From NCBI RefSeq assembly GCF_002285415.1, contig NZ_NSBU01000004.1:822001-886000 (forward strand): a DNA stretch of 64,000 nt, given 5' to 3'. Of the stretch, positions 39,426-42,382 are shown one piece after another. Every line of letters begins with the position of its first letter. The stretch's first letter is position 1. Made by a program: the position numbers and the translations under genes. The notes under the pieces are model-generated. The model saw nothing but the letters and a program-made list of their open reading frames with translations, had not been told where the DNA came from and searched no databases. Origin of the DNA: Actibacterium pelagium (GTDB lineage Bacteria; Pseudomonadota; Alphaproteobacteria; Rhodobacterales; Rhodobacteraceae).

Positions 39426-40211
39426 ATGGCGGCAAAACGTGCATTGGTGACCGGGGCAGGAAAACGCCTTGGACGCGCCATGGCCCTGTCGCTGGCTGAC
39501 GCTGGCTTTGACCTTGCCCTGCATTACGCCTCTTCCGCGGCTGAGACAGAAGCTCTGGCCGATGAAATCCGTACCAGAGGCTGTCAGGCAGAGACGGTTC
39601 AGGCGGACCTGCTGATTGAGGCCCAGACCGCCACGGTCATTCCCGCTGCGATGCAGGCGCTTGGCGGTCCTTTGACACTGCTGGTGAACAACGCCTCGAT
39701 CTTTGAAGATGACGATCTGGACACCATGACCCGCGAAAGCTGGGACCGGCATATCGAAAGCAATCTGCGGTCTCCGGTTGCCCTGACACAGGCTTTCGCC
39801 GCCCAGGCCCCTGCGCCAGAGGTCGATGCAACGAATGAGCCGCGCGCGCAGGCCCTTGTGGTCAACATGATTGATCAGCGCGTCCGCAAACTGACCCCTG
39901 ACTTCATGTCCTACACCACCGCAAAGATGGGCCTTTGGGCCTTCACGCGAACCGCCGCCCAAGCCTTGGCCCCGAAGGTGCGCGTCAACGCCATCGGTCC
40001 CGGTCCAACCCTGAAAGCTGCGGGCCAGACAGAAGCGAATTTCATGCGCCAAAGGTCGGTGACTCCGTTGAACCGAGGCTCCAACCCTGAAGACATCTGC
40101 GCTGCGTTGCAGTATTTTATTGCCGCGCCCGCAGTGACCGGACAGCTTATCTGCGTTGATGGTGGACAGCATCTGAATTGGCAAACGCCGGATGCGATGG
40201 GGCTTGAGTAA
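39426..40211 (+). CDS. SDR oxidoreductase, pteridine-reductase-like
   Basis: A 261-residue short-chain dehydrogenase with TGAGKRLGRAMA, the TGxxxRxG cofactor motif that marks the FolM/pteridine reductase branch, NNASIF, and the YTTAK catalytic pair (about 161-165). The C-terminal GQLICVDGGQHL is typical. It may reduce dihydrofolate or dihydrobiopterin using NADPH. Nine bases after the antiporter, so likely in the same transcript. Confidence 0.85.
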   Translation: MAAKRALVTGAGKRLGRAMALSLADAGFDLALHYASSAAETEALADEIRTRGCQAETVQADLLIEAQTATVIPAAMQALGGPLTLLVNNASIFEDDDLDTMTRESWDRHIESNLRSPVALTQAFAAQAPAPEVDATNEPRAQALVVNMIDQRVRKLTPDFMSYTTAKMGLWAFTRTAAQALAPKVRVNAIGPGPTLKAAGQTEANFMRQRSVTPLNRGSNPEDICAALQYFIAAPAVTGQLICVDGGQHLNWQTPDAMGLE

Positions 40212-40513
40212 AGACATATTTAAGATGCAGCGCAGCGAAGTTGTGCACCGTGGACACCCCTGAATTACTTTTGTAACAAAAATGTAATGTTTTCAGGTGT
40301 TTGGCTGTGTGGATAATAAAATAACATTTAAAATCAATAACTTGCAAAAGCGCCTAAAAAATAGGCAATGTCAATAAAACCCCATGAATCAAGGGAAATT
40401 CGCCTCCTCCGAATAGTTCCCCCCAAACTTATCCACAGAAACAGTGGAAATGTTTTCTCTTGCCCTTGTCCAAAGATCATTGCAGCCAGAGAACGGAATC
40501 ACGGACAAGCCTT
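40212..40513. other. AT-rich 302-base intergenic region with two perfect DnaA boxes
   Basis: This gap before uvrC is far richer in A and T than its surroundings. It contains TGTGGATAA at 40308-40316 and the inverted TTATCCACA at 40429-40437, both perfect matches to the consensus DnaA box and 121 bases apart, with A/T runs such as AATAAAATAACATTTAAAATC in between (written partly). It could be a replication origin, a DnaA-controlled promoter for uvrC or a DnaA titration site. No parAB, hemE or dnaA is visible within the window. Confidence 0.55.
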
Positions 40514-42382
40514 ATGAGCGACGCTAGCGATAACAACCGACACACAGGTCATGATTGCATACAATCGTATTTGAACACGCTCGACCACTCACCGGGCGTG
40601 TATCGGATGTTGGATGCGGAAAGCCGCGTTCTGTATGTGGGTAAGGCGCGCAGCCTGAAGAACCGGGTGACGAATTACGCCAACCGCACCGGCCACAGCC
40701 CCCGTATCGCGCGGATGATCCGTGAAACCGCCTCGATGATGTTCCTGACCACCAAGACGGAAACCGAGGCGCTGCTGCTGGAACAGAACCTGATCAAGCA
40801 GTTGAAGCCGCGCTATAACGTGCTGCTGCGCGACGACAAAAGTTTCCCGAATATTCTGGTGTCCAAGGAACACGGGTACCCCCAGATCAAGAAGCACCGT
40901 GGCGCGAAGAAAGAGAAGGGCAACTACTATGGCCCCTTCGCCAGCGCAGGCGCGGTCAACCGGACCTTGAACCAGTTGCAAAAGGTCTTTCTGTTGCGCA
41001 ACTGCTCGGACGCGATGTTCGAAAGCCGGACGCGGCCTTGCCTTCTGTATCAGATCAAGCGCTGCTCGGCGCCCTGCGTCGGCAAGATCAGCGAAGCGGA
41101 CTATGCAGATCTTGTTGCCGATGCCGAAAGGTTCCTACGCGGGCGGTCTACCCGCGTTCAGGAAGAGTTGGCCGAAGAAATGGCCGCAGCGTCCGAGGCG
41201 ATGGAGTTCGAACGTGCCGCCGCCCTGCGCGACCGTATTCGCGCCCTGACGCAGGTCCAGCAGGCCCAGGGCGTCAACCCGCGCGGCGTGGCCGAGGCCG
41301 ACGTGATCGCCTTGCACATGGAAGGGGGCCAAGCCTGTGTGCAGGTCTTCTTCATCCGTGCGAACCAGAACTGGGGCAACAAAGACTTCTACCCTCGGAT
41401 CGACCGGGACACGCCCGCCGAAGAGGTCCTGCAAGCCTTCATCGGCCAATTCTACGATACCAAGGAACCACCCCGCCAGTTGATCCTGTCCCATGGGATC
41501 GAAGACGCCGACCTGATGGCGGACTTGTTGGCCGAAAAGGCGGGCCGCAAGGTTGAAATCACCGTCCCCCAACGCGGCGAGAAGATGGAGTTGGTCTCAA
41601 ACGCTGCCCGCAATGCCCGCGAAAGCCTTGGCCGCAAGATGTCCGAAAGCGCGGCGCAGTCGAAACTGCTGGCTGGTCTTGCTGAAGCCTTCGACCTTGA
41701 TGCCCCGCCGCAACGGATCGAGGTCTACGATAACTCGCATATCCAAGGCACCAACGCCGTCGGCGGCATGATCGTCTCGGGCCCCGAAGGCTTCGTAAAA
41801 AGCCAATACCGCAAATACAACATCAAGGGCACCGACCTGACGCCCGGCGACGACTTTGGCATGATGAAAGAGGTTCTGACTCGCCGCTTCCAGCGCTTGC
41901 TGAAAGAAGACCCCGATCGCGAGGGCGAGACATGGCCGGACCTGCTGCTGATCGACGGCGGTGCGGGCCAGGTCAGCGCCGTGCGCCAGATCATGGAGGA
42001 CCTCGGCGTCGAAGATATCCCCATGGTGGGCGTCGCCAAAGGTGTCGACCGCGACCACGGCAAGGAAGAGTTCCACCGCACCGGCCAACGCCCCTTCGCG
42101 TTGAGGCGCAACGATCCGGTCCTCTACTTCATCCAGCGCCTGCGGGACGAGGCCCACCGCTTTGCCATCGGCACCCACCGCGCCAAACGCGCCAAGGCCG
42201 TGGGTGCAACGCCTCTAGACGACGTCCCTGGCGTCGGCGCTACCCGCAAACGCGCCCTCTTGGCCCATTTCGGCAGCGCCAAAGCGGTCAGCCGCGCGGG
42301 GCTTGCGGACCTGAAGGCCGTCGATGGTATTTCAGACGCCTTGGCAGAAACCATCTATGGGTTCTTCCATGAACAGGGTTAA
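40514..42382 (+). CDS. uvrC: Excinuclease ABC subunit C
   Basis: A 622-residue nuclease that makes both incisions in nucleotide excision repair. Domains in order: GIY-YIG endonuclease (about 25-105, [20 protein letters not shown]), a Cys-rich region ([17 protein letters not shown]), a UVR segment binding UvrB (about 220-255), an RNase H-like endonuclease (about 395-550, [28 protein letters not shown]) and C-terminal helix-hairpin-helix pairs. ATG 40514 gives the usual N-terminal length; the TTG 40460 frame upstream is AT-poor but unlike the family. An 18-base gap leads to pgsA. Confidence 0.96.

Follow-up and report, generated by a model that had tools for sequence, protein, structure and literature searches.

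A likely DARS-type element, mostly beside uvrC, in Actibacterium pelagium and other Alphaproteobacteria

Introduction

What purpose do two perfect DnaA boxes serve in the A/T-rich gap just upstream of uvrC in the GC-rich chromosome of Actibacterium pelagium? The initial annotation of this locus offered a replication origin, a DnaA-regulated uvrC promoter or a titration site. We addressed the question in a window of 64,000 nucleotides, the whole stretch of DNA that was analysed (C4:822001-886000, in a genome of 3.49 Mb on 7 contigs), and in related genomes of the family and the class.

A DnaA-reactivating sequence (DARS) stimulates DnaA to release ADP, and its deletion makes initiation late. 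The core of one such site, DARS2, is described in a passage of PMC4245941 as conserved specifically among gammaproteobacteria related to Escherichia coli. Part of the text of PMC10380432, citing another work, refers to sequences like DARS1 and DARS2 in many proteobacterial species, and DARS-like sequences of Vibrio cholerae are mentioned in a passage of PMC6090056. Our literature search covered open-licence papers only and brought up no description that we recognized as the element reported here; an earlier one elsewhere is possible. As far as these searches reach, a DARS-type element would be new for the Alphaproteobacteria.

Results

Two DnaA boxes upstream of uvrC

Both boxes lie in a 302-base intergenic stretch (positions 40212-40513, 40.4% GC) flanked by a short-chain dehydrogenase (SDR) gene and uvrC (Table 1). 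They are perfect and inverted (TGTGGATAA and TTATCCACA), as initially annotated; the 121 bases given as their spacing are the distance between box starts, with 112 bases of DNA between the boxes. This DNA is indeed A/T-rich, at 36.6% GC compared with 59.9% for the window. The 64 kb contains no exact DnaA box besides these two, compared with an expectation of 0.19 in all, and two were obtained in 0 of 100 shuffles; the whole genome has 12. The pair is real, but it is not a conserved unit: the uvrC-proximal box is retained in 77 of 79 relatives and the distal box in 2 of 79, and a pair at similar spacing anywhere was found in merely 5 of 295 family genomes, including that of A. pelagium itself. 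In the window, GGGNAGGG occurs 16 times on the plus strand and twice on the minus strand. Sites for sigma-54, LexA and CtrA were set aside on by-eye judgement only.

Table 1. Features at the uvrC locus, with positions in the window
Feature	Position	Strand	Remarks
SDR gene	39426..40211	+	Upstream of the element; also adjoins it in three class loci that have no uvrC
Weak DnaA-box-like site TTGTGCACC	40241..40249	+	TTKTSCAC at -186 to -189
Distal DnaA box of the pair	40308..40316	-	TTATCCACA on minus strand; rare, at the same place in L053 and L057
IHF consensus WATCAANNNNTTR	40332..40344	+	Window letters AATCAATAACTTG, exact
Palindrome GCCTAAAAAATAGGC	40352..40366	.	Fits Fis consensus GNNYANNNNNTRNNC
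DnaA box III	40417..40425	+	Separated from box II by 3 bp; a poor match in the window, TTCCCCCCA
DnaA box II (conserved box)	40429..40437	+	TTATCCACA; uvrC-proximal
Inverted DnaA box I	40443..40451	-	5 bp after box II; minus-strand reading ATTTCCACT
TTGCAG + GAATC block	40480..40500	+	Conserved; putative uvrC promoter
uvrC	40514..42382	+	Start taken as ATG 40514; UvrC, GIY-YIG and UVR Pfam domains

Position relative to the replication origin

DnaA boxes, an IHF motif and AT-rich DNA are all present in the gap, as might be expected of an origin, but the skew switch, the parS sites and the oriC synteny all lie elsewhere and together place oriC about 450 kb away. The suggestion of a replication origin therefore failed, and we give next to no weight to the element being one. 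GC skew, sampled in 39 stretches and the window, turned from negative to positive between the C4 stretches at 350 and 380 kb and turned back near 0.75-0.85 Mb of C7, and the window at 822-886 kb sits in a mostly positive part, far from the switch. Single stretches deviated: C4:100 kb was slightly positive within the negative part, C4:700 kb and, inside the window, 8 kb at 862-870 kb were slightly negative within the positive part, and C7:250 kb and C7:1250 kb ran against their half. Two perfect parS sites were found, at C4:416314 and C4:418192, and the distance from the element to parS is 446 kb; the element thus has neither the skew switch nor parS nearby. The gap at C4:412.75-413.15 kb contains one TTATCCACA and separates maf from hemJ-rho-mnmE-mnmG-rsmG-parA, genes named here from their protein sequences; this neighbourhood is presumably the usual alphaproteobacterial place of oriC. 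The dnaA gene is at C4:309 kb.

Conservation of the element in the family

The conserved arrangement consists, in order, of an IHF consensus, a palindrome of the Fis consensus type, box III, box II and inverted box I. It was followed in the 80 uvrC loci of relatives, of which 79 had enough upstream DNA (L056, whose upstream part is cut, was dropped); L065 and L109, with no box at the usual place, were left out of the alignments. The family alignment is nearly free of gaps over most of the intergenic gap. Box II keeps its place and orientation in all of its 68 exact and 9 one-mismatch occurrences, and exact matches numbered 0 in 500,759 bases of controls. Box III, commonly TTATCNNCA in the family and closer to TTNTCCACA in the class, has on average 6.4 of 9 matches in the 78 family sequences, and box I has 5.8 of 9, versus 2.2 for each in shuffled flanks; box I is missing from one sequence (L118), and L122 is without the block after box I. 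The window's own copy has a perfect box II, IHF motif and palindrome, and its boxes III and I each have 6 of 9 matches.

On the box III side, the palindrome is found at -77 (±2) in 66 of 78 family sequences (controls, 2/1170; shuffled sequences, 3/1560), and the IHF motif, allowing at most one mismatch, at -97 (±2) in 61 of 78, 26 of them exact (controls, 0/1170; shuffled sequences, 6/1560). Still further upstream, the weak TTKTSCAC box is present in 68 of 78. The consensus that the palindrome fits is the one quoted for Fis in a passage of PMC4585315. The genome of A. pelagium has 8 HTH_8 matches, all in frames of 189-523 amino acids, and no Fis-sized HTH_8 protein was found among them. Fis itself has about 98 amino acids.

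On the uvrC side, the alignment columns of TTGCAG are at least 95% conserved, and 76 of 78 family sequences carry GANTC at a distance of +66 to +69 from box II. This block is probably the uvrC promoter. GANTC is the CcrM methylation motif, and its copy just before uvrC (40496-40500, at the same place across L048-L127) hints at cell-cycle control of uvrC.

Comparison with DARS and datA of E. coli

In the part of PMC5742627 that describes them, the DARS1 and DARS2 cores comprise three equally spaced DnaA boxes, with box I opposite to II and III, and both cores were located in MG1655 after that description. Written as III-II-inverted I, the DARS1 core is TAATACACA-TGG-TTATCCACA-GGAAT-AGTGGATAA, in the bioD-uvrB gap and at the map place given in the same text; the DARS2 core is TTCTTCACA-ACT-CTATCCACA-GAAAA-GGTGAATAA (L128:1636-1670), between primer stretches printed in PMC4585315. 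The corresponding segment of a family example, L054, is TTATCGGCA-GAG-TTATCCACA-GAAAC-CGTGGACAT. Order, orientation and the 9-3-9-5-9 layout are common to the element and both E. coli cores, with box I of the element likewise opposite to boxes II and III. A second cluster with the same spacing is present in the DARS2 locus at L128:1958-1990.

The likeness to DARS2, which lies between rppH and mutH, extends beyond the core. Both are intergenic, the element also being apart from oriC, and at the level of motifs both have IHF sites on the box III side, at -97 in the element and at -99 and -83 (one mismatch each) in DARS2, whose two IHF sites are 3 bp apart in the account of PMC4245941. Both carry a Fis-consensus site on that side, with the exact match at -137 in DARS2 versus -77 in the element; in DARS2 it lies beyond the IHF sites, whereas in the element it is nearer to the core than the IHF motif is. 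The Fis sites of DARS2 that Fis binds are FBS2-3. The element further differs from DARS2 in the letters of its boxes, in mostly adjoining uvrC and in coming from a genome where no Fis-sized protein was found. With DARS1 it shares the spacers, TTATCCACA as box II and a seat upstream of a uvr gene, but the DARS1 core points away from uvrB and the element's core points towards uvrC. No IHF motif within one mismatch was found in the bioD-uvrB gap.

Distribution in the class

A sequence model (R1) was built from 50 of the 78 family sequences, with the IHF motif outside the model. It matched the genome of A. pelagium once. Within the family it had matches in 144 of 150 genomes and across the class in 203 of 385 (E ≤ 0.001 per genome), and the remaining 182 of 385 gave no match at this strict filter. 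A genus-level search for relatives returned only the genome of A. pelagium. The class follow-up drew on 60 further loci among the matches listed, nearly all of them one per family. Outside the family, 82 of 85 class loci reached 20 or more of 27 for the three boxes at their best-scoring place and 70 of 82 had the palindrome, counts that are partly circular in loci found with the model. Class loci were nearer to the DnaA consensus than the training family (box III, 7.2 versus 6.4 of 9; box I, 6.9 versus 5.8), with the class means taken from the best three-box fit in each locus, which favours high scores. The IHF motif, with at most one mismatch, was found at -98 (±3) in 48 of 82 class loci, compared with 16 of 1640 in shuffled sequence.

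A scan that started from uvrC gave scores of at least 26, a cut-off chosen after the scores had been seen, in 21 of 30 loci, or 18 of the 27 from outside the family, and in 0 of 240 controls; the other 9 of the 30 loci fell below it. At a score of at least 24, the counts were 22 of 30 loci versus 1 of 240 controls, the top control scoring 25.

Among the matches listed, 57 could be joined to uvrC matches, 3 of them in the family of A. pelagium (the match in G382, with no uvrC match, was left out). The distance of the element from uvrC varies widely among them. The uvrC gene is present in 59 of 85 class loci, and the core was found in 58 of these, always on the strand of uvrC; several of the 26 class loci without uvrC are either truncated at a contig end or weak, and could be chance matches (e.g., L174, L183, L190, L205, and L209). 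In three loci without uvrC (L175, L192, and L216), the element is near the same SDR gene. The order in L175 is antiporter, SDR gene, element and a decarboxylase gene that faces the element, so that the neighbours are convergent and neither can be driven by the element. A minority of class genomes, with L136, L147, L164, L207 and others among the loci, have different neighbours, by eye putative tatD, an ntrX-like end, hisZ-purA and rpe-coaE.

Distances from the element to parS ranged from 0.09 to 0.96 of the replichore for 11 elements in 10 other genomes, 8 of the 11 lying at 0.27-0.58; these are 10 of the 20 genomes in the parS search, and some lengths were rounded. Two small single-contig class genomes, G505 and G496, had 18 and 13 parS matches, respectively, which were not confined to one cluster.

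Discussion

We consider it likely, on the strength of motif arrangement and conservation, that positions 40332-40451 form a DARS-type element. Our confidence is kept slightly lower by the poor match of the window's own box III and by the partly circular class counts. Other points against it are the 9 of 30 uvrC loci below the cut-off, the 182 of 385 class genomes with no match at the strict filter, the different place of the Fis-consensus site in DARS2 and the absence of a Fis-sized HTH_8 protein among the matches in the A. pelagium genome. The proposals made at the outset of a DnaA-regulated uvrC promoter or a titration site were right in that an element with DnaA boxes is mostly tied to uvrC, but they are too unspecific: what is conserved is arranged like a DARS core accompanied by an IHF site, and it is also found away from uvrC.

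A uvrC promoter controlled by DnaA and IHF, which would tie excision repair to the replication cycle without any reactivation of DnaA, is the strongest competitor, although we think it unlikely. It would account for the 44 of 57 joined matches that lie 27-605 nucleotides upstream of uvrC on the same strand and for the promoter-like block with GANTC that follows the element in the family, and it has a parallel in the regulation of E. coli uvrB by DnaA stated in a passage of PMC6015884. The persistent same-strand place upstream of uvrC fits such a role and counts against a DARS. An operator would not, however, need exact DARS spacers, nor does the widely varying distance to uvrC suit a promoter; the other 13 of 57 joined matches, some of them short or weak, lie elsewhere, and in L175 the element sits between convergent genes without uvrC. 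Its presence apart from uvrC in some genomes indicates that the element is not merely a uvrC promoter, and any effect that it has on uvrC is likewise presumptive.

DnaA boxes with an IHF motif outside oriC are also what a datA-like or simple titration site would offer, where bound DnaA, perhaps with hydrolysis of its ATP, would restrain reinitiation. We could compare datA, which stimulates ATP hydrolysis, by description alone: in the relevant part of PMC5742627, its IHF site is placed between its DnaA boxes, whereas the IHF motif here is outside the three-box core. If the weak box at -188 is counted, the IHF motif of the family sequences does have boxes on both sides, yet the order, orientation and spacers of the core are those of DARS, and a datA-like or titration function seems improbable. 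Still less probable is a conserved small RNA or RNA leader in place of a DNA site, despite the long, nearly gap-free conservation. RNAalifold retained a hairpin formed by the 5- to 6-bp arms of boxes II and I and, on the minus strand, a short stem within the palindrome, and z-scores against shuffled columns were about -5 to -11 in hairpin-bearing regions. The energies, calculated over as many as 345 columns, are only 0 to -7 kcal/mol, however, and the hairpin arms show no covariation because their sequence hardly varies. The conservation is explained by fixed DnaA and IHF motifs, and the sole Rfam match in 1.5 kb falls outside the element and does not reach its threshold.

If the element is a DARS, then ADP-DnaA would bind boxes III and II, which share an orientation, as well as box I, which opposes them head to head, while IHF, about 97 bp off on the box III side, would bend the DNA and a putative protein on the Fis-consensus palindrome would assist. 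The DnaA oligomer might then let go of ADP, and the empty DnaA would take up ATP, preparing the cell to initiate again at oriC. The element also points to a further DNA-binding partner, the candidate palindrome protein, for which HTH_8 proteins of the RegA and NtrX types come first to mind. With its precise DARS core and a length of 120 bp, it makes the question of DnaA recharging directly testable in Alphaproteobacteria.

Whether DARS extends beyond the relatives of E. coli in this form is, in our estimate, close to an even call: Alphaproteobacteria would broadly carry one such element, in most cases next to uvrC, using IHF together with a different protein that replaces Fis on the TTAGGC palindrome. 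If this is true, the use of a fixed DNA site to reactivate DnaA would be an old trait of proteobacteria, and its location next to a uvr gene in both classes (uvrB and uvrC) would connect the licensing of replication with excision repair.

Some class genomes have two or three copies of the element among the matches listed. The two copies in G467 are at C1:488773 and C1:497931, and G344 has the L193 copy plus a uvrC-linked match (C1:1428658 and C1:948822). Class genomes with two copies, one of them away from uvrC, resemble E. coli with its pair of DARS1 and DARS2.
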